This document shows, piece after piece, positions 34,268-47,998 of a stretch of DNA of 64,000 nt. The notes below the pieces were generated by a model, which searched no databases, was not told where the DNA came from, and saw only the letters and a program-made list of their open reading frames with translations. Position numbers and translations under genes: made by a program. Source of the stretch: Salinigranum halophilum (GTDB lineage Archaea > Halobacteriota > Halobacteria > Halobacteriales > Haloferacaceae). How positions within the stretch are numbered: the stretch's first letter is position 1; the number at the start of each line of letters is the position of its first letter. The stretch is from assembly GCF_007004735.1 (NCBI RefSeq), contig NZ_ML660182.1, positions 1 to 64,000 of the forward strand. The letters are read 5' to 3'.

Positions 34268-34466
34268 GCGGTCCATCACGCCCGTGTGTCGTGCGGTCCT
34301 CATGTTGTTCGAAGACACCCGCCCCCGTCGGCGTGGGACCACTTCGACCCGACGCGCCGCCGACTCTCGGTCAGTAATCGACGCTTCACCCACCAGGTCT
34401 CCGAGGCCGCCGCAAGAACGTCACTGGAAAAGAAGCTTCTTGGGGCCCCCCTCGGTATGGTCGGGT

Positions 34467-35852
34467 ATGGGATTGTTCGACCGACTGCGCGGAACCGACC
34501 ACCCGCGCGTCGCCTTCATCGGAATCGACGGGGTTCCATTCACGCTCCTCTCGGAGCACCCCGACGAGTTCCCCAACGTCGCCTCGCTCATCGAGGAGGG
34601 GAGCGCCGGCCCCATCGACAGTATCGTGCCCCCCGAGTCCAGCGCCTGCTGGCCCGCGCTCACCACCGGCGTGAACCCGGGCGAGACCGGCGTCTACGGC
34701 TTCCAGGACCGCGAGGTCGGCTCGTACGACACGTACGTCCCGATGGGCCGTGACGTCCAGGCGACCCGGCTGTGGGACCGTGTCAGCCAGGACGGCCGCG
34801 ACGCCACCGTGCTCAACGTCCCGGTCACGTTCCCCCCTCAGCGGAACGTCCAGCGGATGGTGTCGGGCTTCCTCTCACCCTCCGTCGACAAGGCGGCGTA
34901 CCCCGACGAACTCGCCGACTACCTCCAGTCCATCGACTACGCCATCGACGTCAACGCCAAACTCGGCCACAAAGAGGACAAGGGAGAGTTCATGGACGAC
35001 GCCCACCGCACCCTCGACACGCGGTTCGAGGCGTTCAGCCACTACCTCTCCGCGGACGACTGGGACCTCTTCTTCGGCGTCTTCATGACCACCGACCGGG
35101 TCAACCACTTCCTGTTCAAGGACTACGAGCGCCTCGCGCCCGGTGCGTCCGGCGACACCGAGGGGCTGAAACAGGAGAACCGCGAGCTGTTCTTGGAGTT
35201 CTACCGCAAGGTCGACGAGTACCTGGGGAAGATCCGTTCGATGCTCCCCGACGACGTGACGCTCGTCGTCGCCTCCGACCACGGCTTCACCTCGCTGGAC
35301 CACGAGGTCAACTGCAACGCCTGGCTCGAAGAGAACGGGTGGCTCTCGTACGCCACGGACGACCACGACGGACTCGACGACATCTCCGACGACACCCGGG
35401 CGTACTCGCTCATTCCCGGGCGCTTCTACGTCAACCTCGAGGACCGCGAGCCGCGCGGGTCGGTCCCGCAAGCGGAGTACGAGGCGGTTCGGAACGAACT
35501 CAAAGCCGAACTGGAAGCGTGGGAAGGCCCCGACGGGAAGAAGGTCGCCGCGCAGGTCGTCGAGAAGGAGGAGGCGTTCCGTGGCGAACACGACGCCATC
35601 GCCCCGGACCTCGTGGTCGTGCCGAACCACGGCTTCGACCTCAAGTCGGGGTTCAAAGACAAGGAGTCGGTGTTCGCACAGGGGCCCCGCAACGGCATGC
35701 ACTCGTTCGACAACGCGACGCTCCTCGTCGACGACCCCGACGTCGCCATCGAGGACGCGGACCTCTACGACATCGCGCCGACCATCCTCGACCTGATGGA
35801 ACTCGACTTCACGCGGACGGATTTCGACGGCGCGAGTCTCGTCCGGCAGTAA
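34467..35852 (+). CDS. Alkaline-phosphatase-superfamily phosphodiesterase/nucleotide pyrophosphatase
   Basis: A 461-residue protein with no signal peptide. VAFIGIDGVPFTLLSEHP near residue 16 gives the first metal Asp, SIVPPESSACWPALTTGVNP the nucleophile Ser/Thr region near residue 60, FFGVFMTTDRVNHFLF near residue 205 and VVASDHGFTSLDHEVN near residue 270 the further Asp/His ligands, and FRGEHDAIAPDLVVVPNHG near residue 375 the final motif. The pattern is that of type I phosphodiesterases (AP superfamily). Substrate unknown. Start MGLFDRLRGTD; a palindromic A/T segment lies 26-37 bases before. Confidence 0.88.
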   Translation: MGLFDRLRGTDHPRVAFIGIDGVPFTLLSEHPDEFPNVASLIEEGSAGPIDSIVPPESSACWPALTTGVNPGETGVYGFQDREVGSYDTYVPMGRDVQATRLWDRVSQDGRDATVLNVPVTFPPQRNVQRMVSGFLSPSVDKAAYPDELADYLQSIDYAIDVNAKLGHKEDKGEFMDDAHRTLDTRFEAFSHYLSADDWDLFFGVFMTTDRVNHFLFKDYERLAPGASGDTEGLKQENRELFLEFYRKVDEYLGKIRSMLPDDVTLVVASDHGFTSLDHEVNCNAWLEENGWLSYATDDHDGLDDISDDTRAYSLIPGRFYVNLEDREPRGSVPQAEYEAVRNELKAELEAWEGPDGKKVAAQVVEKEEAFRGEHDAIAPDLVVVPNHGFDLKSGFKDKESVFAQGPRNGMHSFDNATLLVDDPDVAIEDADLYDIAPTILDLMELDFTRTDFDGASLVRQ

Positions 35853-35875: not shown

Positions 35876-36982
35876 TCAGGTGAGGTCGTCGAGTTCGTCG
35901 ACGGCCCACCCGTTCGCCCCGCTCGAACCCGTCGTGTCGCGGCCGTCGTCGTCGGCTGCCGTGCCTGCACGACTCGCTTCTCTCGCCCGCTCGAAGAACG
36001 TCTCGACGCGCGGCGTCCGCTCGATTCCGCTCAACAGCACGAGCGACGCGATCTTCTCTGAACGCAGCGGGAAGTCACCGCCGCGGACCTGCATACACCC
36101 GGTCTCGTCTTCGACCCACCGACGGGCGCGCTCGACGCCCTTCCGCGGGATGGCCGCCGGGCGGCCCGCGACCACCACGAGCGCCGCCTCGGCACTGTCG
36201 GCCTCGATGCTTGTTCCGGTCAAGAGCGCTTGGCGGGTCGTGCTCGTCACGACGTTGACGTTCTCCCCGGCGTCGCGCGCGGCCGACGCGTCCGCGTAGC
36301 CGACGGTCGCGAGCGTGCCGTTCCGGAGGGTGTTGATGAGCTCCGACGCGTCGACGACGCTCTCGGCGACTTCACTCCCGGCGTCGACCTCTCCCGCCGC
36401 GAGCAGGAGCCCCAGCCGACGGGCGATGGCCTCGTTGACCCGTTCGTAGCCCGATTCGAGACTGTCGCCAGTCCTTCGAAACGCGTCGTTGTCGACGAGG
36501 AGCACCGCGTCAGCCTCGCGCGCGAGTGTCTTCAACGACCGGCCCGCGTTCACCTGGTACAACGCCCCCTCGTCTCGGCCGGGGAGCACGCCGATGGCGT
36601 AGACGGGCCTGTCGTAGACGCGGTTCAGTTCCTGGACGAGGACGGGCGCACCGCCCGACCCCGTGCCGCCGCCGAGGCCGGCGACGACGAAGACGGCCTC
36701 CGCGGCCGCCTCGACGACGACCGCGTCGAGCACCGCTTCGATGTCCTCGCGCATCACCTGCGCGCCGAGTTCGTTGTCGCCGCCGACGCCGTGGCCGGAG
36801 ACGCGTGACTGGCCGATGAGAAGCGACTGTACCGTGTCGGGGAGGGCGCGGAGGTCGGCCGTCGCGGTGTTGACCGCGACTGCGCGGCGGACGGCATCGT
36901 GACGCTCGCCAGCATCGAACGCCTGGAGGGCGCTGACGAGTTTCCCGCCCGCCTGACCGACGCCGATCAGGACGGACTGCAT
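35876..36982 (-). CDS. cetZ: Tubulin-like GTPase, CetZ family
   Basis: A 368-residue tubulin/FtsZ homologue. MQSVLIGVGQAGGKLVSALQ opens the GTP-binding domain, AVNTATADLRAL matches the nucleotide loop, and [20 protein letters not shown] near residue 100 is the tubulin signature. VYAIGVLPGRDEGALYQVNA follows. Unlike FtsZ1 it lacks the long N-terminal extension and has an acidic tail (DELDDLT). CetZ proteins shape haloarchaeal cells and affect motility. The gene is divergent, 90 bases away, from a pilus-like cluster. Confidence 0.9.
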   Translation of the reverse strand: MQSVLIGVGQAGGKLVSALQAFDAGERHDAVRRAVAVNTATADLRALPDTVQSLLIGQSRVSGHGVGGDNELGAQVMREDIEAVLDAVVVEAAAEAVFVVAGLGGGTGSGGAPVLVQELNRVYDRPVYAIGVLPGRDEGALYQVNAGRSLKTLAREADAVLLVDNDAFRRTGDSLESGYERVNEAIARRLGLLLAAGEVDAGSEVAESVVDASELINTLRNGTLATVGYADASAARDAGENVNVVTSTTRQALLTGTSIEADSAEAALVVVAGRPAAIPRKGVERARRWVEDETGCMQVRGGDFPLRSEKIASLVLLSGIERTPRVETFFERAREASRAGTAADDDGRDTTGSSGANGWAVDELDDLT

Positions 36983-37035
36983 GACCGTGTCGAACACCTG
37001 TCCGTCAATGATGTTTTCGATGTTTCACCTCGCGG

Positions 37036-37052
37036 CGAGCGTTTTTATCCGA
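37036..37052 (+). promoter_or_regulatory. Promoter core of the pilus-like cluster (copy 1)
   Basis: CGAGCGTTTTTATCCGA with the TATA-like TTTTTATC about 27 bases before the ATG at 37073. The same 17 bases recur at 41792-41808 before another gene of the cluster. Confidence 0.6.
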
Positions 37053-37072
37053 GGAGGCGGCCACCGCCCCGC

Positions 37073-37585
37073 ATGACGGACGACCTTCGGACCCGGCTCG
37101 AAGCGGTCGAACGGGCCGTCGCCGGCGGCGAGACCGACCTCGCTCACGTCGCCGACGCGGCCGCCCTGGAAGCACGTCTCACGACGGTCGAAGAACGGCT
37201 CGACGCTCTCGAGACACGACTCGACGACCTCGATGCGACGACGCAGGCGGTTCGCGGCTATCTCGGCGGCGTCGACGACGTCACCGCGGACGTCGAACGA
37301 CAGGCGTCGCTGGCGCTTGCGAAGGCCGAGCGCGTCGAGTCCCGCGTGTCCGACACCGACGAGGGCCTCTCGGTCGAGCGGCTTCCGGCGGCGTCGACCG
37401 ACCGGCAGGTCGCCGACGGCGCGCACGACACCCGTTCGGATGCGCGTCCGGGCCGGCCGGAGCGTGTTTCGGCGACGCCCGATGGCGCTGGTCGGCCAGC
37501 CCCGCCAGACGCCGCCGACGGGAGCCGTGGAACCGACCACGGGCCCGAGGAGTCACTCGTCGCGCGGCTCCGGGACGCGCTGTGA
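37073..37585 (+). CDS. Coiled-coil protein, first gene of pilus-like cluster
   Basis: A 170-residue soluble protein. Residues 1-85 are a long coiled coil (LEARLTTVEERLDALETRLD with Leu heptads); residues 100-155 are polar and Pro/Gly/Asp-rich; the C-terminus ESLVARLRDAL forms a short helix. No catalytic motif. It heads the cluster and its stop overlaps the next start (GTGA), so it is probably a structural or adaptor component. I recall it as the haloarchaeal DUF7310 family, not verified. Confidence 0.78.
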   Translation: MTDDLRTRLEAVERAVAGGETDLAHVADAAALEARLTTVEERLDALETRLDDLDATTQAVRGYLGGVDDVTADVERQASLALAKAERVESRVSDTDEGLSVERLPAASTDRQVADGAHDTRSDARPGRPERVSATPDGAGRPAPPDAADGSRGTDHGPEESLVARLRDAL

Positions 37586-38055
37586 CGGCGGTTCGAACGC
37601 TCCTCACCGTGGTCGTCGCGACCGCGTTGCTCGGTGCGTCGCTGCCAGCCCTCGACGACGCTCGCGTCGACCGGACCGAGCGTCGCCTCGACGCGAGTGC
37701 GACTCGGCTGACAGACGTCGCCGCCGGCCTCGTCGCCACCGACGACCCGGTCCCCGTGGGCGCGCGCGGCGCGAGTCGGACCGTCGTCGTCACCCTTCCG
37801 TCGGCCGGCGTCGCAGACGCCCGCGCGGCGTCTCTCTCCGTCGGCGGCCTCCCGAACGCGTCGCACCCGTCCACGGTCGGCTACCGCGTCGCCGGACAGC
37901 CGCCGCGACGGCTCGACACCGGCGTCCGGTTCGTCACTGGTGAACGCCCGCTCGTCCTCTCTCCGGGGCGGCACACGCTCCGACTGACGCTCGTCCGAGT
38001 CGAGGGACGCGTGGGCGTCCACGTTCGCGTCGCCGAGTCGACCTCGCTCCGCTGA
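37582..38055 (+). CDS. Signal-anchored protein of pilus-like cluster
   Basis: A 157-residue protein with an N-terminal hydrophobic signal/anchor (VRTLLTVVVATALLGASLPA) and a beta-rich exterior domain containing SRTVVVTLPSAGVADARAAS and LSPGRHTLRLTLVRVEGRVG. The GTG start overlaps the preceding stop. The exported part is rich in Arg, Val and Thr and has no Cys. Likely held at the outer membrane face beside the ATPase-platform machine encoded next; function unknown (DUF7311 from memory). Confidence 0.75.
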   Translation: MTAVRTLLTVVVATALLGASLPALDDARVDRTERRLDASATRLTDVAAGLVATDDPVPVGARGASRTVVVTLPSAGVADARAASLSVGGLPNASHPSTVGYRVAGQPPRRLDTGVRFVTGERPLVLSPGRHTLRLTLVRVEGRVGVHVRVAESTSLR

Positions 38056-38110
38056 CCGTGGACTCGTCTCGGACGAACGTTCAAATACCGGTACGAGGCC
38101 AGAGCGGCCC

Positions 38111-40066
38111 ATGACGCTCCTCACCACACTCGTCGACCGCTCACGGGCGCTCTTCGGAACGGACGACGACGACGCGGCCTGTGCCTGTGGGCTCTCCTTC
38201 GAGACCCCGGCCGGCACCCACGCCGAGTGCGGCACCGAACTCCGCGTCGCCGCGGACGACTGTCCGGGGAACGGTGACCTCGCCGCGTCGGCCGACTGTC
38301 GGGCGACGGTGACCGGGGCACTGACCGAACGCGACGCGGACCTCGTTCGCAGCCGCGCCGGCGGCGTCGACCGACTGTACACCGACGACGCCTGTGCGCT
38401 CCTCGTCGCCGCCGGACGGTTCGCCGAGCGCGCCGCCCACCACGATGCCCGTCTCGCTGCGCGCGCGCTGTGTGACCCGCTGGGTGCCGCTCACGAGGCG
38501 ACGGGACGCGCCGGCCCCGTCGCCCGAATCGCGGCCGAGACGGGGCTCGAGATGGGCGCCCAGCGTGCCGACGGCGACGGGTACGAGACGGTGCTCCGGG
38601 CGCTCACCGCACCGACCGTCGCCCGCTGTCGTGTCGGCGTCGACCCTCCCGTCGGCGCGACGCTCGTCGACGCGTGGGAACTCGACACCGGTGCACGCGT
38701 CAGGCTGTACGACGTCGACGAACGACACTCGTCATGCCGGCAGGCGGCGGCCGACGACAGCGACGGCCGGCAGTGGTACCACCTCGTCCCGGCGTGGCAG
38801 CGTCTCGACGAGTCGGCACTCGAGACGCTCGCCGCCGCGCGGCGACTTCTCGCCACCGGGGGCGTCACGGGAGGCCCGCGCGCACCATACCGGGCGGTTC
38901 GACGAAGCGCCGACGACAGCGACCCGGTCGAACGGCTCGGCGCGCTCTTGGCCAAGCACACGCGGGGCCACGGTGTCTTGGACGACGTCTTCGCCGACGA
39001 GCGTGTGACCGACGTCTTCGTCACGAGCCCCGTCGACGAGAACCCCGTCCGCGTCGTCGTCGACGGCCGACGGCTCGAGACGAACGTCCACCTGTCGCAC
39101 GCGGGTGCGGCGGCGCTTGCCTCACGGCTCAGGCGGGCATCGGGCCGCGCCTTCTCGCGGTCGACGCCGACGCTCGACGCGACGGTCGACACGTCGACGG
39201 ACCGCCGGATTCGGCTCGCTGGCGTCGCACCCCCCGCCAGCGACGGCCTCGGCTTCGCGTTCCGGGCACACGACGAGACCGTCTGGACGCTCTCCCGACT
39301 CGTCGCCCTGGGGACTCTCCCGGCCGCCGCGGCCGGCCTCCTCTCTTTCGCTGTCGAGCGTGGAGCGGCGACACTCGTCGCCGGGCCGCGCGGCGCGGGG
39401 AAGACGACCACCCTCGGCGCGCTCCTCTGGGAACTCCCCACGACGACGCGGGCCGTCGTCGTCGAGGACACGCCCGAACTCCCCGTCTCGGCGTTACAAC
39501 GGCACGGCCGCGACGTCCAGTCGATCTACACGGGGCTCGACGACGGTGCCGCGCTCTCGCCCACCGATGCCCTGCGCGCGGCACTTCGACTCGGCGACGG
39601 CGCTCTCGCAATCGGCGAAGTCCGCGGCGAGGAGGCTCGGGCGCTCTACGAGGCGATGCGAGTGGGAGCGGCCGACGGTGCGGTCCTGGGGACGGTCCAC
39701 GGGGTCGGCGGCGACGGGGTAAAAGCGCGGATGGTGACGGACCTCGCGGTCTCCGAGCAAGCGTTCGGCGCGACAGACCTGGTGGTGACGCTCACCGCCG
39801 AGGCCGGGCGCCGGGTGACGCGTATCGAGGAGGTCCGGTCGACGAGCGAGAGTGTGCACTTCACCGCGCTGTTCGAGATGAGCGACGACTCCGACCGGCT
39901 CGAGCCCACCGGTGTGATCGACCGCGGCGAGAGTGCCATCCTCCCGACGCTCGCCCTCCCCGGGGAGTCGTACGCCGACGTTCGAACCACGCTCTCGGAG
40001 CGCACCGCAGCCATCGACCGACGCGCCGCGGCGGGCCTCACGGCTCCCGACGCGCGGGGGGACTGA
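38111..40066 (+). CDS. Type II/IV secretion-type ATPase (GspE/TadA/PilB-like)
   Basis: A 651-residue assembly motor. Residues 20-65 form a Cys-rich module (CACGLSF, AECGTE, DDCPGN, ADCRA) unusual for the family. The N-terminal domain covers about 100-300; the Rec-like core has GPRGAGKTTT (Walker A, residues 423-432), VVEDTPELPVSALQRH (Asp box), ALAIGEVRGEEARALYEAMR (Walker B near 497) and GTVHGVGGD (His box near 525). It should power extrusion or retraction of a pilus-like structure with the TadC-like protein two bases downstream. A TATA-like AAATACC is about 25 bases before the ATG. Confidence 0.9.
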   Translation: MTLLTTLVDRSRALFGTDDDDAACACGLSFETPAGTHAECGTELRVAADDCPGNGDLAASADCRATVTGALTERDADLVRSRAGGVDRLYTDDACALLVAAGRFAERAAHHDARLAARALCDPLGAAHEATGRAGPVARIAAETGLEMGAQRADGDGYETVLRALTAPTVARCRVGVDPPVGATLVDAWELDTGARVRLYDVDERHSSCRQAAADDSDGRQWYHLVPAWQRLDESALETLAAARRLLATGGVTGGPRAPYRAVRRSADDSDPVERLGALLAKHTRGHGVLDDVFADERVTDVFVTSPVDENPVRVVVDGRRLETNVHLSHAGAAALASRLRRASGRAFSRSTPTLDATVDTSTDRRIRLAGVAPPASDGLGFAFRAHDETVWTLSRLVALGTLPAAAAGLLSFAVERGAATLVAGPRGAGKTTTLGALLWELPTTTRAVVVEDTPELPVSALQRHGRDVQSIYTGLDDGAALSPTDALRAALRLGDGALAIGEVRGEEARALYEAMRVGAADGAVLGTVHGVGGDGVKARMVTDLAVSEQAFGATDLVVTLTAEAGRRVTRIEEVRSTSESVHFTALFEMSDDSDRLEPTGVIDRGESAILPTLALPGESYADVRTTLSERTAAIDRRAAAGLTAPDARGD

Positions 40067-40067
40067 G

Positions 40068-41780
40068 ATGTCGTCGGCGCTCACGAGGCTGCTCACCGCG
40101 CTCGCTCAGCCCTGGCCGGGTGCGGTCGCGACTGACGAGACGCTCGCCCGCCAGTTGTCCTTTCTCGGTTCGTCGGTGTCGGCGGACGTGGTCGTTCGGG
40201 GCGGCTACACGGCTGGCGTTCTCGGTGCCGTCCTCGTCGGTTTCGGTGGGTTCGCGCTCGGAATCGACGCCGGGGCTGCCGCGCTCGTCGCCGCGACTGT
40301 CGGCACCGTCGTCGTCCACGTCGTCCACCGGGCACCGGCGGCGTTCGCCGCCGTCGAGCGGACGCGCGCGCTGTGTGCGGCGAGCGACCTCGTCGGTCGC
40401 CTCGTGCTTCACGCGCGGTTCACACCCGCCGTCGAACCGGCGGTCGTCTTCGCCGCCCGGACGGGGACGGGTCCGCTCGCGCGGAGTCTCGACGACCACG
40501 TCCGCCGGGCGGCCGGGACGCCCGCGACGGGGCTCGACAGCTTCGTCGCGGCGTGGCGACCGTGGTTTCCGGCGCTCGAACGCGCCGCGGACCTGGTCGC
40601 GACGGCCGTCGACGCGCCTCCGTCGGAGCGGTCGACGCTGCTCGACCACGCGCGGTCGACCGTCGTCGAGGCGACCCAGGAGCGGATGGCGTCGTTCGCG
40701 GCCGACGTCCGCGGCCCGGCGACGGCGGTGTACGCGTTCGGCGTCCTGTTGCCGCTGGCGCTCGTCGGAATCCTCCCGGCGGCGGGCGTCGCCGGGGCGT
40801 CGATATCGCTCACCGCGCTCGCGCTCGGGTACGACGTCCTGCTTCCGCTCGCGCTGTTCGGTGCGTCGGGGTGGCTCCTCGCTCGTCGTCCGGTCACCTT
40901 CGCGACGCCATCGGTGTCGCGCAGCCACCCCGATGCACAGGTCCCGTGGTGGCGACCCGCGCTCGCCGGCCTCGTGACCGCCGGGACGTTCTGGGTCGTC
41001 GCGACCGTCGTCGTCGGGGACTGGGCCGCTCCGGTGGTCGTCGTCGGGACGGGCGTCGGTTCGGTGTTCGTGGTCCGGTTCCATCCGGCCGTCACCGTCC
41101 GGCGGCGTGCGCGCGCCGTCGAAGACGGCTTGCCAGAGGCGCTCTCGCTCGTCGGCCGGCACGTCCGCGACGGGACGGCCGTCGAGGCCGCTGTCGAACG
41201 CGTCGGCACGGAACTGTCGAGCGAGACCGGTACGCTGTTCGCGGCGGCCGCGGGCGTCCAGCGACGGCTCGGTGTCACTCTCGACGAGGCGTTCCTGGGT
41301 GAGTTCGGCGTGCTCGCCGACCTGCCGAGCCCGCGCACTCGCGCGGCCGCGACGCTGCTCTCGGTGGCCGCTGTCGAGGGACGGCCCGCGGGCGAGACCG
41401 TCGTGGCGATGGCCGAGCAACTGCGCGACCTCGAACGCGCCGAACGGGCCGGACGGCGAGAGCTCGCGGCGGTGAGCGGGACGCTCGCCAACACTGCGGC
41501 CGTCTTCGGACCACTCGTCGGCGGCGCGACGGTCGCGCTCGCGGCGCGCATCGCCAGTGTCGACGCGGGCGCGGCTGTCGGGCCCGCCTTCTCCGTCTCT
41601 GGGCTCGGGACCGTCCTCGGCGGCTACGTCTTCCTCATGGCGGCGACGTTGACCGCGCTGGCGACCGGGCTCGAATCCGGGCTCGACCCGACGCGCGTCG
41701 GCTACCGGGTCGGTATCGCACTCGTGCTGGCCGGCGTGTCGTTCCTCGTCGGGGTCGTCGCCGCCGGCCTGCTACTCTGA
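40068..41780 (+). CDS. TadC/GspF-type inner-membrane platform protein
   Basis: A 570-residue protein with a duplicated type II secretion F layout: two helical cytoplasmic domains (AAFAAVERTRALCAASDLVG near 85-120 and RARAVEDGLPEALSLVGRHV near 345-380) and about eight membrane helices in pairs. Ends in a hydrophobic helix pair (FLVGVVAAGLLL). Starts two bases after the ATPase stop, the usual TadA-TadC partnership. It anchors pilin-like subunits during assembly. Confidence 0.88.
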   Translation: MSSALTRLLTALAQPWPGAVATDETLARQLSFLGSSVSADVVVRGGYTAGVLGAVLVGFGGFALGIDAGAAALVAATVGTVVVHVVHRAPAAFAAVERTRALCAASDLVGRLVLHARFTPAVEPAVVFAARTGTGPLARSLDDHVRRAAGTPATGLDSFVAAWRPWFPALERAADLVATAVDAPPSERSTLLDHARSTVVEATQERMASFAADVRGPATAVYAFGVLLPLALVGILPAAGVAGASISLTALALGYDVLLPLALFGASGWLLARRPVTFATPSVSRSHPDAQVPWWRPALAGLVTAGTFWVVATVVVGDWAAPVVVVGTGVGSVFVVRFHPAVTVRRRARAVEDGLPEALSLVGRHVRDGTAVEAAVERVGTELSSETGTLFAAAAGVQRRLGVTLDEAFLGEFGVLADLPSPRTRAAATLLSVAAVEGRPAGETVVAMAEQLRDLERAERAGRRELAAVSGTLANTAAVFGPLVGGATVALAARIASVDAGAAVGPAFSVSGLGTVLGGYVFLMAATLTALATGLESGLDPTRVGYRVGIALVLAGVSFLVGVVAAGLLL

Positions 41781-41791
41781 ACGCGTCTCGC

Positions 41792-41808
41792 CGAGCGTTT
41801 TTATCCGA
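41792..41808 (+). promoter_or_regulatory. Promoter core inside the pilus-like cluster (copy 2)
   Basis: CGAGCGTTTTTATCCGA, identical over 17 bases to the promoter at 37036-37052, with its TATA-like part 25 bases before the ATG at 41828. The shared flanks (GCGGCCA before the ATG) suggest co-regulated transcripts. Confidence 0.6.
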
Positions 41809-41827
41809 AGACGCGGCCAGACCGCCC

Positions 41828-42325
41828 ATGTTCGACACCCCGATAGACACGTGGTACGCGTGGCTCGGCCTCGCGGCGGCGACGCTCGTCGTCTTCGGCG
41901 TCGTGTCGTCGCTCCCGACGACCCCCGCGCCGGACGCTCCGGCCGTTGCCGAGACGGTCGACGCCGTCGCGACGAGCGAGTACGAGACGACGGCGACCCG
42001 CGCGCTCGACGCGCGGGCCGTTCGCATCGGCCCGCGGCGCATCGGTCTGCGAACCGACGCCGGGACGGCACACGCGACGCTCGGCTACCGCGTCGTCCCG
42101 GTCGAGCCGGGCACGACACTCGCCCGCGTGCTCCGCGGGCAGCCGCCGGCGGCCGTCTTCACCTCCCGGGCGACGTTCGAGCGCGCCGTCGACACCGCCC
42201 GTGACCGCGCTCGCGACCCCGCGTGGCGGCCCGCCGGTCGACACCTCGTCGTCCGCCGCCTCTCGTGGGACGGCGTCGACGTCACGCTCGTCGGGACGCT
42301 CGATTCGAGACCGGGGGGTGTCTGA
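41828..42325 (+). CDS. Membrane-anchored small protein of pilus-like cluster (1)
   Basis: A 165-residue protein. One membrane helix at residues 10-28 (YAWLGLAAATLVVFGVVSSL) follows a short cytoplasmic lead, with an Ala/Thr/Pro stalk and a beta-rich domain (GPRRIGLRTDAGTAHATLGY, RHLVVRRLSWDGVDVTLVG). No prepilin-peptidase motif. The next gene starts two bases after the stop. Family unknown in function; I recall it as DUF7283. Confidence 0.75.
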   Translation: MFDTPIDTWYAWLGLAAATLVVFGVVSSLPTTPAPDAPAVAETVDAVATSEYETTATRALDARAVRIGPRRIGLRTDAGTAHATLGYRVVPVEPGTTLARVLRGQPPAAVFTSRATFERAVDTARDRARDPAWRPAGRHLVVRRLSWDGVDVTLVGTLDSRPGGV

Positions 42326-42327
42326 GC

Positions 42328-42708
42328 GTGTCTCGCCTCCGCGGACAGGTCGAGCCGCTCGCGGCGCTCGCGGCTCTGTTCGCCGTCTGCGTCGGGCTCT
42401 CGACGTACGCGGTCGTCCTCGTCGACACCGGTGGCCCAACCGACCGTGACCTCGCCGAGCCGACGCTCGCGGCCGTCCACGACGACGTCACGGTTCGGGG
42501 GGTCGTCCATCCCGCGCGCCTCGACCGCACACCCGGCGACGGGCCGGCCGGCGCACGGCTCAACGTCTCGCTCGCGACGGGCGAGCGGCGGTGGGCAGTC
42601 GGACCCGTGGTTTCGGCGCACGGTGACCGTGCGTCCCGGCCCGTGAGTGTCCGACTCGGCCCGGGACGCGTGCGTGCGGGGAATCTCCGGGTGGTGGTGT
42701 GGCGATGA
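42328..42708 (+). CDS. Membrane-anchored small protein of pilus-like cluster (2)
   Basis: A 126-residue protein starting from GTG: RLRGQVEPLAALAALFAVCVG provides a basic lead and a membrane helix with a pilin-like Glu after the basic residues (VEPLAALAALF). The exterior part has short beta strands (ARLNVSLATGERRWAVG, SVRLGPGRVRAGNLRVVVW). The Glu placement recalls the Glu-5 of pseudopilins but the peptidase Gly is displaced, so a minor pseudopilin role is possible only. Its stop overlaps the next ATG (ATGA). Confidence 0.7.
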   Translation: MSRLRGQVEPLAALAALFAVCVGLSTYAVVLVDTGGPTDRDLAEPTLAAVHDDVTVRGVVHPARLDRTPGDGPAGARLNVSLATGERRWAVGPVVSAHGDRASRPVSVRLGPGRVRAGNLRVVVWR

Positions 42709-43559
42709 CACGGCGGAACGAACGGGGAATCAGTACCGTCGTCGACGTGTCCGTCTTCCTCCTCCTCGTCGGGGCGGCCGTGTTCTCCGTCGCGACTGCC
42801 GCGGATGCGAGCGCCGACGACACCGTCTCGATCACTGCCGACCGTGACGAGGCGACCGTCGAGACGCTCGCGACGACGACCGCGACGGTCCAGTACGACC
42901 TCGGCGTCGACGACCGGACCGGTGAACCCATCGAGCGGGCTCGCCACGGGACGCTGGCCGAACTGCTCGCGGACGCCGCCGTGGCGAACGCCACTGTCGA
43001 CGGCGCACCCCTGTCACCGTACGCGGTCGGTTTCGTCGACGCCGTCGAGACCACCGTCTCACCCCTGCTCGACGGGCGGACGCAGGTCGCCGCCACGTGG
43101 CGTCCGATTCCGGGAAGCACCCTCGCCGGCCAGGTCCGACTCGGTCCCGACCCCCCGACCGATTCGACCGTTCACGCCGCGACGTTGACCGTCGACAGCG
43201 GGATTCCGCCGACCAGTGACCGCGCGCGTTCCGCCTCCGTCGGCGGGTACGGCCACGTCGCGGACGTCGTCGCCCGCGGGACCGTCGACGGGCTGTTCCC
43301 GCCGCGCCGAACGCGGGTCGCGCTGGACGGCGACGGGGCCGACGCCGTCGTCGCCCGGGAGCAGTTCGCCTCGATGCGGTCGGCGTACGACTCCGAGACG
43401 ACGTTCGAAGCGGGCGTCGAGCCCGCGCGGGCCGACCTCACCGCGGCCGTCTCGAACCGCACCACACGAACGCTCGCATCGCAGTTCGAGACGCCGCGCG
43501 CGGCGGCCGCGGCAGTCCGGACCGGCAGCGTGCACATCGTCGTCAGGACGTGGTCGTGA
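42705..43559 (+). CDS. Pilin-like exported protein of pilus-like cluster
   Basis: A 284-residue protein with a class III-type signal: RRNERG then ISTVVDVSVFLLLVGAAVFS, matching a prepilin-peptidase site (R-G before a hydrophobic helix). The exterior 240 residues are Thr/Ala/Asp/Arg-rich with strands such as ATVQYDLGVDD and TVHAATLTVDSGIPPT. Longer than usual haloarchaeal pilins. ATGA overlaps at both ends tie it to its neighbours. It could be a major or minor subunit of the assembled structure. Confidence 0.75.
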   Translation: MTRRNERGISTVVDVSVFLLLVGAAVFSVATAADASADDTVSITADRDEATVETLATTTATVQYDLGVDDRTGEPIERARHGTLAELLADAAVANATVDGAPLSPYAVGFVDAVETTVSPLLDGRTQVAATWRPIPGSTLAGQVRLGPDPPTDSTVHAATLTVDSGIPPTSDRARSASVGGYGHVADVVARGTVDGLFPPRRTRVALDGDGADAVVAREQFASMRSAYDSETTFEAGVEPARADLTAAVSNRTTRTLASQFETPRAAAAAVRTGSVHIVVRTWS

Positions 43560-46500
43560 TGCGGCTGGCAGACGACACCCGTGGACGGGTCCCGTTCGCG
43601 CTCATCTACTCCTCCTCGGGAGCACGACCTACGCGAGCACGCTCGCGACCGACGAACTGCGCGTCGACCGCGACGTCGAGGCGGCGATGGACCGGGCGAC
43701 GGCCGCCTCGGAGACGGCGCTTCGGACCGCGGTGTCTCGCGCCGCCCGAGACGCCGCGCGGACCCCGGTCGTCGAGCCGGCGTCGAGCAACTGGGGTGAC
43801 GTACTGGACGAGGACCGTCCGTTCCGCGACAGCCTCCGGGTTCGGATCTACGTCGCGGCGCGCGAGAGCTTCGAGCGCGCCGCGTACAGCCGCGGCGACG
43901 TCACGGCCGCCGCCTCGCTCCCGGCGACGCCGACGCCGGCAGCCCTCGAACGCAGGCTCGACCGCATCAGCGTTCGGGGCGTCGAGAACGGAACCGCCCT
44001 CGAGGTGCGGCTTCGGAACGTCTCCGTCGTCGCCCGACAGGACGGTGACGTCGTCGCCCGCGAGACGGCGAACTGGACCGTCACCGTCGCGACGCCCGTG
44101 CTCGCGCTCCACGACCGGACGGTCCGGTTCGAACAGTCGCTCGCGCGTGGTCCGCTCAAGGGGCCGGGGCTCGGTCGGCGACTTACAGCCCGCCTCTACC
44201 CGGTCGCCTGGGCGCGCGGCTACGGCCAGTGGGGCGGGTTACCCGTCAGTAACGTCGTCGGCACCCGGCACGTCGGCGTGGCGACCAACGGCGCTGTCCT
44301 CGACCTCCAGCGGGCGGCGTTCGGGCGCGCCGACCCGACTGGTCGAACGGCCCAAACGCGGGCGCTAGGGCGACTGCTCCTGGACGACTCCCGCGCGGGG
44401 CTGAGCACGCCCGAAACGAGCCTGCTCGCGAGCGTCGCACCGCTTCCGACGCCCGACCCCGACGACGCCGAACAGCGGATTCCGCGGCTCGCTCGCCCCG
44501 ACGCGCCGACCCCGGACAAGCGGGTCGAGCTCGGTGTCGACGACACGGCCGACCGGGCGTTTGTCGCGTTCCACGCGGGCGAGAGAGGCCCGTCGCTCGA
44601 CGCGGTACTCGAACGCGCGTACCGGGTGAATCTCACCCTGCGAACGCACGCGAGGCTCGTCGAGTCGGAGCCGTGGCCCCAACCGCGAGCACCCAGCGCC
44701 GGCGCCGCCCTGGTGAACGAGACAGTGACGGCCAGCGCCACGGTCGACGGCGGCTCGGCGTCGCTTCCACCACACCCCGCCACCGCGACTCGGTTCCGAA
44801 CCGCGACCCGACACGTCACGGTCCGTCATCGAGTCGAACGAACCTGGCGACGTGGAAACACGACGTTCGAGACGACAGCGACGACGACCGAGCGGTACGC
44901 CGTCGGCATCGCCGTCGACGGATCGCTGGCGTCGCTGGCGGGCACGCCGACGCGCCCCGTCGTCCCCGTCTTCGAACCGGGTGGTGCGCTCGACGGTCCG
45001 AACCTCGCGGACGTCCCCCCGATGGCGGACACGTTCCTCACCCGTCGCGGCGGTGTCGAACACGTCGCCGCGCAGCGGGTCCTCGAGGGTCCCGAAGCAC
45101 TCGACCGGAACGGGAGCGTCACCGGAGCACAACCGCCGGACCTCCGCGAGTGGGTCGAAGCGGACGTCCTCGACCTCCACCGTACGGTGCGGAACACCTC
45201 GACACCGGTTCGGATGGGTGACGCCGCCACGGGACGAGCGAACCCGTCGGCGCAGCTCCGAGAACGACTCGACACCGGACGGGACGCACTCGTCGACGCG
45301 CCGTCCCAGTACGACGGCGCGGCCGACCGTGCCCGGGTCGCCGTCCGGGCTGCGTACCTTGCACGGGTCGAGGCACGACTCTCGGACCGTTCGAACGCGA
45401 CCGTGCGAGCGAACGACCGACTCGCCGACGCGCTCCGGAAGCGTCACATCGACCTCGACGGCCGGGCGACGGACATCATGTCGGTTCGGCGTCCGACGCC
45501 CCCTAGCCACCGACCCGTCGGCGGCCCACTCGGCGGCGAGGACGTGTTCGTCCCGCAGGGTGGCCCACCGTATCTCGACGTAGCGGGCGTCGACCGCGCC
45601 GACAGGGCCTGGAGCGACCGGTACGGGACGGCGTACCCCCTGCGGACCCGGAACGTCAACGTGTTCACCGCGCCCTACGGCGACGCCGTCGACGCCGTCT
45701 TCGGGGCGAACGAGGAGAACACGGTCAGGCTCCACACCGCTGCCACCACGCTCCGCGCGCTCGAGACCGCCGGCTCGGACACACCCGACCTGGCGGCCCG
45801 GCGTGACGCGCTTCGGACCGGGGTTGCGACATCGCTCGCCCACGTCCGTACCCGAACGACGGACGTCCTCGCCGACGAGACCACGCTCTCGGAACCGGAG
45901 CGTGAACGGGCCGTCACCGATGCTTTCTCGACGTGGAACCGGACGTCGGCGAAGGCGCTCGCCGTCACGAACGGCTCGTTCGTCCCCCGTGTCGTCCGCG
46001 CGGCCGGCCTCGAAGGCGACGAGGCCGCCCGGGTGAGCGCCCACCTGCGGGTCGCCGTCGCCGAGGCGCGAAACAGTGAGACGACGCGCGTCGACCTCGA
46101 GGTGGTCGACCGTGGGGCTGACGCGGTCCGTCAGCTCTCCAAGACGGCGGCCACCGAGGCGCTCGGGACGGTCGTCGCCAACGGTACCGACCGGCTCGCC
46201 AGTCGAACGAAGGGAAAGGCGGTCGTGCTTCCGGCGGGGCTCCCGCTCCTTCCGACACCGACCAACTGGTACGCCACGGTGAACGTCTGGGACGTCCACG
46301 TCCAGGGGTACTATCCGCGGTTCGCCGTTCGGACCCGACGGGGCCTCCCCGGGGAGACGGTGACGTACGTCCGTGACGGCGGTGACGCGGCCGTCGACAT
46401 CGACGGCGACGGCGTCGACGAGCCGCTCGGTCGCGCGTCGCGCATCCGGTTCTCGGTTCAGACCGTCGTCTTGGTCGCGGTCCCGCCCGGCAAGACGGGT

Positions 46501-46587
46501 GTCGGCGACACTGATGGCCAGGGCGTCGAGGACTCACCCGGCTGGGGTGAGCCGATCCCTCAGCCACGATCCCGTGTGGCGGGCTGA
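43559..46587 (+). CDS. Large surface-type protein of pilus-like cluster, frameshifted near its start
   Basis: The ATG at 43559 gives MRLADDTRGRVPFALI, then the frame runs into unrelated Arg/Ser text. From base 43606 the next frame continues a proper membrane helix (LLLLGSTTYASTLATDEL) and stays open for about 993 residues to 46587. One missing base in AT(C)CTA would restore a continuous protein of about 1,009 residues with an N-terminal anchor. The long exterior region is rich in Arg, Thr, Ala and Asp, with helical segments at 120-200 and 720-860 and a late beta-rich part (NWYATVNVWDVHVQGYYPRF). No start codon suits the downstream frame at the helix. Error, pseudogene or recoding are all possible. 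Confidence 0.75.
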
Positions 46588-46680
46588 GACACTCGACTCG
46601 TGAGCAGTGGCGACGCGACTCGACCCGGGCCCGCTGCGAAAGTGACAACCGTTTTCATCCCCCCAGAACCACACTCCGGT

Positions 46681-47109
46681 ATGTTCTACGACGTTGTCGA
46701 CGACCCAGCATCGCACGGCGCAGGAGAACTCCGCGCCGCGTACGAGCGAGCGCTCGCGGACGTCATCGACGCTCACGGCGCCGAGACCGTCGCCGCCGAG
46801 TCGGGCGTCGACGCCGACCGCCTCGAGACGCTCGCCGCGGGCGAGTCGGCCGAACTCAGCGTCGAGGAGGCGATGGCCGTCCTCGCCGTCGACGCCGACC
46901 TCGACGCCGAGACCATGGCGCTCGAACTCCGCGACCGCCTCCTCATGGGGATGACGACCGGTGTCCTGGACGTCGACACGCTCGCCGCCGAGACCGACCT
47001 CGACATCTCGGGGCAGGAGGTCCAACAGTCGCTCGAAGGCCGCCGCCGGACGACGCTCGCCGAACTCGCGGCGATTCACCGCGTCATCGCCGTCCGGAAC
47101 GACCGCTGA
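46681..47109 (+). CDS. DUF5791-type acidic helical protein
   Basis: A 142-residue protein beginning MFYDVVDDPASHGAGELRAA, with short helices arranged like regulatory antitoxin or DNA-binding repeats (VIDAHGAETVAAESGVDADR, LDVDTLAAETDLDISGQEVQ) and an end TLAELAAIHRVIAVRNDR. I associate it with haloarchaeal DUF5791; function unknown. The ATG is preceded at the right distance by GTTTTCATCC. The epimerase gene starts 13 bases after its stop, so they may be co-transcribed. Confidence 0.8.
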   Translation: MFYDVVDDPASHGAGELRAAYERALADVIDAHGAETVAAESGVDADRLETLAAGESAELSVEEAMAVLAVDADLDAETMALELRDRLLMGMTTGVLDVDTLAAETDLDISGQEVQQSLEGRRRTTLAELAAIHRVIAVRNDR

Positions 47110-47122
47110 GGGGACGACGAAG

Positions 47123-47998
47123 ATGAAGGTAGTCGTCCTCGGCTGTGGGTACGTGGGGCTCGAACTCGGCCGCCAGCTCACCGCAGCGGGACACGACGTC
47201 GTCGGAGTCCGTCGGTCCGATTCGGGACTGGAGGCCGTCGCCGACGCGGGACTCGACCCCGTCCGTGCGGACGTCACGGAGTCGGAGACGCTCGCCGACG
47301 TCCCCGACGCGGACTGGGTGGTCTTCGCGGCCAGTTCGGGCGGCCGCGGTGCCGACGCCGCCCGACGGGTGTTCGTCGACGGCCTCCAGAACGCCGTCGA
47401 CGCGTTCGCGGCTCGCGAGTCGCCACCGGAGCGACTCGTGTACACCTCCTCGACGGGGGTCTATGGCGACCACGACGGCGACTGGGTGGACGAGGCCACC
47501 TCGCTCGACCCGACGACGGACAAGACACGCGTCCTCGCACGAGCGGAGGAGGTCGCGCTCTCGGCACCCTTCTCCTCGACGGTCACGCGCTTTGCCGGTC
47601 TCTACGGTCCCGACAGATACCGGCTCGAACGCTACCTCGAGGGGCCGGTGACGGAGGGGTATCTCAACATGGTCCATCGCGACGACGCCGCCGGTGCCGT
47701 GCGGTTCGCCCTCGAGCGGGACGTCGACGACGTCCTCCTGGTCGTCGACGACGAACCCGTCTCGAAGTGGGAGTTCGCGGATTGGCTCGCCGACGCGTGC
47801 GGGGTCGCCCGTCCGGAGAAGCGTACGAAAGCGGAACGGCTCGCTGCGGGCGACCTCTCGGAGGCCGCGCGGCGGCGCATCCTGACGAGCAAGCGCTGTT
47901 CCAACGAGCGGCTTCGAACCCTGGGGTACGAGTTCGTCTATCCGACGTTTCGCGCGGGCTACCGGGCCGCAATCGACGCGTATCGGCGTGACGTGTGA
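47123..47998 (+). CDS. NAD-dependent epimerase/dehydratase family protein
   Basis: A 291-residue extended SDR-type protein. MKVVVLGCGYVGLELGRQL is the dinucleotide motif, VVFAASSGGRGADAARRVFV replaces the usual second strand region, LVYTSSTGVYGDHDGDWVDE near residue 103 holds the conserved Ser/Thr and Tyr, and TRFAGLYGPDRYRLERYL follows. It lacks the classical Tyr-x3-Lys, which is common in this atypical group. Nucleotide-sugar or other epimerase/dehydratase activity is likely; substrate unknown. Confidence 0.87.
   Translation: MKVVVLGCGYVGLELGRQLTAAGHDVVGVRRSDSGLEAVADAGLDPVRADVTESETLADVPDADWVVFAASSGGRGADAARRVFVDGLQNAVDAFAARESPPERLVYTSSTGVYGDHDGDWVDEATSLDPTTDKTRVLARAEEVALSAPFSSTVTRFAGLYGPDRYRLERYLEGPVTEGYLNMVHRDDAAGAVRFALERDVDDVLLVVDDEPVSKWEFADWLADACGVARPEKRTKAERLAAGDLSEAARRRILTSKRCSNERLRTLGYEFVYPTFRAGYRAAIDAYRRDV

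Follow-up and report, generated by a model that had tools for sequence, protein, structure and literature searches.

The stretch analysed here, called the window, comprises 64,000 nucleotides of the Salinigranum halophilum genome (NCBI RefSeq assembly GCF_007004735.1, contig NZ_ML660182.1, positions 1 to 64,000). It contains a minus-strand gene for a CetZ protein and, divergent from it, a cluster of eight plus-strand genes that encodes a type IV pilus-like assembly machine with several named but uncharacterised membrane proteins (Table 1). Checked in the window, the coordinates and gene order given by an earlier sequence-only reading of this DNA are correct. The cetZ start is most likely the ATG at 36982, and its distance from the first gene of the cluster (37073) is thus 90 bp. 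The seven junctions within the cluster measure -4, 55, 1, 47, 2, -4 and -1 bp. Nearly all had been described as overlapping or no more than two bases apart; this is true of five, but the other two are genuine spacers about 50 bp long, and both contain a TATA-like element.

Table 1 Features of the locus and its flanks (positions in the window)
Feature	Position	Strand	Evidence or remark
cetZ2, tubulin/FtsZ-family GTPase, CetZ2 subfamily	35876..36982	-	Tubulin and CetZ_C Pfam domains
Divergent intergenic region, 90 bp	36983..37072	.	TTTTTAT element, a putative TATA box, 24 nt before DUF7310 start
DUF7310 coiled-coil protein	37073..37585	+	PF23991 E=7e-27; probably arCOG07564, from description and position
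DUF7311 single-pass membrane protein	37582..38055	+	PF23993 E=2e-36; single N-terminal hydrophobic segment
55-bp gap, putative promoter	38056..38110	+	TTCAAATA 23 nt before pilB2 start
PilB2-type assembly ATPase, N-terminal Cys cluster	38111..40066	+	T2SSE 7e-18
PilC2/TadC-type multi-pass membrane platform	40068..41780	+	T2SSF in 13 of 24 relatives, best 8e-9; seven predicted hydrophobic segments
47-bp gap, putative promoter	41781..41827	+	TTTTTAT 23 nt before DUF7283 start
DUF7283 single-pass membrane protein	41828..42325	+	PF23954 1e-50; hydrophobic segment 8-31
DUF7285 prepilin-like protein (RLRG/QVEPLAALAALFAV)	42328..42708	+	PF23956 7.5e-34
DUF7284, N-terminal helix and globular domain (NERG/ISTVVDV)	42705..43559	+	PF23955 1e-76
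DUF7286, ~1,000-residue extracellular protein, prepilin-like N-terminal helix	43559..46587	+	PF23957, 1053 bits, profile positions 15-1000 only; frame broken at 43603-43608
Flank: type I phosphodiesterase/nucleotide pyrophosphatase, conserved cetZ2 neighbour	34284..35852	+	PF01663 2e-49; probably arCOG01377
Flank: DUF5791, conserved neighbour	46600..47109	+	PF19104 5e-44; possibly arCOG04674
Flank: NAD-dependent epimerase/dehydratase, conserved beside cetZ2	46961..47998	+	PF01370 3e-11, PF13460 1e-12; probably arCOG03095; true start likely about 47120

An ATPase of the PilB/GspE/TadA type, a multi-pass platform protein of the PilC/TadC type and, elsewhere in the genome, a prepilin peptidase (one Peptidase_A24 match, contig C6) are all present. 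The ATPase had already been recognised as GspE/TadA-like; in a profile search its closest solved relatives are the archaeal type II secretion system ATPase 2oap and CpaF/TadA, with FlaI also matched. Across 30 aligned sequences its Walker-A residues are invariant, as is C26 of a Cys-rich N-terminal extension in which C24, C51 and C63 are found in at least 90%. The platform protein, earlier called TadC, has only a sub-threshold T2SSF match of its own in Pfam (E=0.085). Its probable PilC/TadC identity is supported by the relatives that do match; a search of the PilC profile against the Protein Data Bank (PDB) gave nothing useful.

With cetZ2 at its side, the cluster is probably the pil-2 type IV pilus regulon of haloarchaea (pilB2/C2, subclade 4F of Makarova), a system that is already known. 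Published descriptions can be summarised as (i) Makarova et al. 2016 described halobacterial type IV pili of subclade 4F, whose loci join a coiled-coil and an S-layer-like protein to an ATPase that is Cys-rich at its N-terminus, next to an FtsZ-like gene (PMC4858521); (ii) Brown and Duggin 2023 identified this neighbour as cetZ2 and the system as pilB2/C2, found it in Haloferacales and Halobacteriales, and reported that genes for an epimerase, a phosphodiesterase and arCOG04674 lie nearby as well (PMC9856176); (iii) Losensky et al. (2015) reported that seven pil-2 genes of Halobacterium salinarum R1, among them three for predicted prepilins, are co-transcribed (PMC4292770). The coiled-coil protein, the Cys-rich ATPase N-terminus and the FtsZ-like neighbour recur in the window, where DUF7286 is the candidate for the S-layer-like protein, and by this context its ATPase would be placed in subclade 4F and arCOG01818; the window cluster differs in having no PilA-family gene. 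Common to the window and the second description are CetZ2 beside pilB2 and pilC2, several predicted pilins, one surface protein, the epimerase and the phosphodiesterase; the window copy differs in its broken DUF7286 frame. The flanking phosphodiesterase, DUF5791 and epimerase genes fit the published cetZ2 neighbourhood. With R1 the window shares pilB2, pilC2 and predicted prepilin genes. The R1 set is a single transcription unit with its ATPase in arCOG01818, and differs in that its own pilC2 carries an in-frame stop; in strain NRC-1 it is pilB2 that has an insertion (PMC4292770). No pilB2 mutant phenotype is reported in the R1 literature consulted. The distinct surface structure or secretion device proposed by the sequence-only reading is thus a type IV pilus-like machine, but not a new one. 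Compared with the bacterial Tad pilus (CpaF/TadA, TadB/C), likeness lies in CpaF being among the closest solved ATPase relatives and in the T2SSF-type platform; no Tad pseudopilin homologues were found, and DUF7283 to DUF7286 and DUF7311 are separate families.

On sequence comparison, the CetZ of the window belongs to CetZ2, not CetZ1. Its best solved match is 4b45, at 1e-133 against 1.4e-95 for 4b46. The 4b46 alignment skips about 23 residues (238-260) that are absent from the window protein, whereas 4b45 aligns throughout; following PMC9856176 the skipped loop would be the M-loop, so that the M-loop of the window CetZ would be short. In the tree the protein clusters with other pil-adjacent CetZ and apart from both paralogs of its own genome (100/100), which score 408 and 398 bits on the CetZ2 profile, against at least 484. 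The GTPase motif GLGGGTGSGG is present. The window protein sits on a long branch, has the lowest profile score of 84 regulon-linked CetZ and the lowest mean identity of 53 members of its family (z=-2.6).

The small proteins of the cluster had been thought mostly unknown. They are uncharacterised, and a literature search on the DUF numbers found no match, but all fall in named Pfam DUF families and the view of them as orphans was rejected. A home-made pattern for class III-like N-termini fits DUF7285 in 112 of 119 relatives and DUF7286 in 119 of 121. For DUF7284 the picture is mixed, the pattern fitting in part, and DUF7283 and DUF7311 do not fit. The profiles that we built for DUF7310, DUF7311 and DUF7283 run upstream of the true starts; DUF7310 positions in the gene-order table and signal-peptide counts for DUF7283 and DUF7311 are consequently unreliable, and N-termini were therefore read directly from the sequence. 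As noted earlier, no typical short pilin is encoded here: Pfam detects no Pilin_N gene within the cluster and six Pilin_N matches elsewhere in the genome. Two strong Pilin_N genes lie in tandem far from the cluster (G000:C2:290638-291342) and might supply it with a major pilin in trans.

Two of the proteins were modelled and compared with the PDB. AlphaFold2 predicts DUF7284 as an N-terminal helix followed by an alpha/beta domain (predicted local distance difference test score, pLDDT, 90.8). DUF7286, modelled from the Halogranum rubrum copy because that of the window is broken, has several domains (pLDDT 83.3, predicted template modelling score 0.72). Foldseek found no PDB match at E<=0.001 for either model, and their sequence profiles gave no convincing relatives there; the sole PDB match below 0.001 in these searches, a stretch of ribosomal uL16 at 6.9e-4, was judged to be chance. 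A scan of genome contigs with DUF7284 alone was uninformative. The models suggest that these two proteins are not ordinary pilins, in agreement with the earlier expectation.

DUF7286, with 12 glycosylation sequons, is the large surface-type protein (about 1,000 residues) noted earlier. It is a putative counterpart of the 'S-layer-like' protein of subclade 4F; the gene is present, but its frame is interrupted near the start in the window and its model has no PDB match. Relatives encode ...RVPFALIGVLLLV... in a single frame. In the window, MRLADDTRGRVPFALI lies in the frame of the ATG at 43559 and LLLLGSTTYAS in a different one, from 43606, so that the break falls within the N-terminal membrane helix, a conserved part of the protein. 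Elsewhere the gene shows the same degree of conservation as its counterparts in other genomes, which points to a recent mutation or an assembly error. Programmed frameshifting was rejected, as relatives read the region in one frame. DUF7286 breaks were also seen in two more sampled genomes, G100 (a stop) and G153 (two frames).

Conservation was assessed in 194 genomes of the class, 151 of which contain DUF7286. Regions of about 20 kb around 120 DUF7286 matches were searched with our own profiles, and a regulon was called motor-complete when PilB, PilC and DUF7286 were all found; 106 such loci had upstream sequence. CetZ2 was adjacent if encoded on the opposite strand within 3 kb, and absent if nothing matched the window CetZ better than E=1e-100. 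The gene order is the same in most DUF7286 loci. Divergent cetZ2 adjoins 81 of the 106 regulons, in 28 genera and seven families, so that conservation of the order including CetZ, which had been suggested as a check, holds up; a sporadic, chance arrangement was rejected. In the other 25 regulons, CetZ2 is encoded elsewhere in the genome (17) or is absent (eight). One of the eight (G129, locus L099; one contig, 98% complete) carries the entire regulon, and nothing in this genome matches CetZ_C. Conversely, 64 of the 194 genomes possess CetZ2 but lack a motor-complete regulon. The two show a weak positive association (odds ratio 2.9, Fisher p=0.017, uncorrected for kinship). Adjacent and non-adjacent CetZ2 proteins are intermixed on the tree, with 12 state changes and no separate clades. 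CetZ2 is not obligatory for the regulon, and either occurs without the other; on these comparative data a strict dependence of the regulon on CetZ2 is unlikely.

Loci that lack the regulon often retain the order phosphodiesterase, cetZ2, DUF5791, epimerase. In four of them remnants persist in place between cetZ2 and DUF5791: 240-250 C-terminal residues of DUF7286 in L219 and L220, a DUF7311 fragment with the final 46 DUF7286 residues in L221, and DUF7286 fragments in L222. The PilB tree tracks families except f3, with eight family-label changes. Brown and Duggin read the regulon as possibly recent and mobile; the larger sampling here, with mostly vertical PilB inheritance and deletion scars, favours an old neighbourhood with repeated loss. 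Since the PilB and CetZ2 trees are unrooted, this reading draws its main support from the deletion scars and from the flanks that the loci have in common. In L121 and L124 (G089, G050) the PilB of an f3 genus is nested in f4, which suggests transfer of the regulon.

We propose that the prepilin-like subunits would be inserted in the membrane by their N-terminal helices and then processed by a PibD-type peptidase, whose single gene lies elsewhere in the genome. DUF7285 and DUF7286 would clearly be such subunits, DUF7284 probably, and DUF7283 and DUF7311 less surely. Through its action on the PilC2 platform, the PilB2 ATPase would next pull them out of the membrane to yield a short pseudopilus or adhesive filament. 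DUF7286, which is large and glycosylatable, would be exposed as its tip or as a surface module; major pilins of the PilA type may be drawn from other parts of the genome, and DUF7310 would serve as a regulator in the cytoplasm. CetZ2 would be an ancestral divergent neighbour that may help to place the machine and is not required by it. The 8.5-fold relative increase of pilB2 in attached Hbt. salinarum cells (PMC4292770) is in keeping with this account.

Several points weigh against identifying the window locus as a pil-2 pilus regulon of this kind. The increase of pilB2 in attached cells occurs at a very low absolute transcript level (PMC4292770), and the literature consulted records no sighting of a filament for this locus. 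With its DUF7286 frame broken, the window copy may not work. The globular parts of DUF7284 and DUF7286 match no solved pilin. The arCOG numbers given for the locus and its flanks were matched by description only and not computed.

A rival reading is a secretion device in which a short pseudopilus, and no surface filament, would work like a piston to drive DUF7286 or further proteins across the S-layer. This is possible though rather unlikely. It would account for a cluster without a major pilin, for subunits that are few, mutually unlike and of folds unlike solved pilins, and for the size and sequons of DUF7286. However, Pilin_N genes exist elsewhere and haloarchaeal motors take pilins in trans (PMC4858521, PMC6491452), no gene for a secreted substrate is linked to the cluster, and DUF7286 has a prepilin-like N-terminus of its own, as would befit a part and not a cargo.

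CetZ2 is unlikely to be a scaffold or positioning factor dedicated to this pilus, with polymers under the membrane that would recruit PilB2/PilC2, perhaps through the coiled-coil DUF7310, and so couple surface filaments to cell shape. This idea was put forward by Brown and Duggin, who also noted that CetZ of Thermococcales adjoin another type IV locus (PMC9856176). The frequency of divergent cetZ2 across 28 genera speaks for it, as do two split loci (G124, G174) that retain the motor half beside cetZ2. Against it stand the eight genomes with complete regulons and no CetZ2, the many with CetZ2 alone and the intermixing on the tree. The phosphodiesterase, DUF5791 and epimerase likewise stay as neighbours, so neighbourhood alone proves little. 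In Haloferax volcanii, deletion of cetZ2 leaves planktonic shape unaffected and alters cell length in early biofilm (PMC10606840), and cetZ2 expression drops at most time points under mating and biofilm conditions (PMC7749143). This drop is opposite to the rise of pilB2 in attached Hbt. salinarum, which is weak evidence as species and conditions differ. The coupling to CetZ-driven cell shape suggested by the sequence-only reading is thus not supported.

Decay of the locus in this genome, with DUF7286 a pseudogene and cetZ2 evolving fast, is improbable: the frame break, the divergent CetZ2, the scars of repeated loss and the damaged Hbt. salinarum genes would fit it, but one break on its own can result from faulty assembly, the GTPase and ATPase motifs are intact, and DUF7286 and all other regulon genes are normally conserved (z between -0.7 and 2.1).

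The association of pil-2 with cetZ2 has been published; added here are mainly wider sampling, evidence that the regulon was present ancestrally and lost repeatedly, and two models of good confidence that lack solved relatives. The locus ties CetZ2, about which less is understood than about most archaeal tubulins, to a pilus machine whose subunits are uncharacterised, and a functional link, if proved, would give CetZ2 a job. It is a long shot that pil-2 builds a surface organelle, from subunits whose folds resemble no solved pilin (DUF7284, DUF7286), that is placed or regulated by CetZ2 polymers where these are present. If true, a protein of the tubulin family would steer a type IV machine in archaea. 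Genomes with the regulon and no CetZ2, and the reverse, are natural experiments that show which species to compare.

Three similar TATA-like elements lie 23-24 nt before the starts of DUF7310, pilB2 and DUF7283 (37042-37072, 38080-38110, 41797-41827). Upstream of DUF7283, 61 of 68 relatives have an AT-rich 7-mer (6 or 7 of 7), usually at -31/-30, compared with 0.6% of control stretches; upstream of PilB, AT-rich 8-mers are found in 49% of relatives and 3% of control stretches. The regulon looks like three blocks, namely DUF7310-DUF7311, pilB2-pilC2 and the four membrane proteins. Promoters inside the regulon would be compatible with the co-transcription seen by reverse-transcription PCR in Hbt. 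salinarum. The sequence GAGCGTTTTTATCCGA is common to the upstream regions of DUF7310 and DUF7283. In G124 and G174 the DUF7283-7285-7284-7286 set lies away from the motor genes, so that the regulon has broken at one of these promoter-like points. Three genomes in all, G124 (L223 with L118), G174 (L224 with L107) and G033 (L228 with L128), have the motor half beside cetZ2 and the membrane-protein half elsewhere. At L115, L119 and L120 (G045, G175, G046), cetZ2 is accompanied by DUF7310, DUF7285, DUF7284 and DUF7286, and PilB, PilC, DUF7311 and DUF7283 are absent from the locus.

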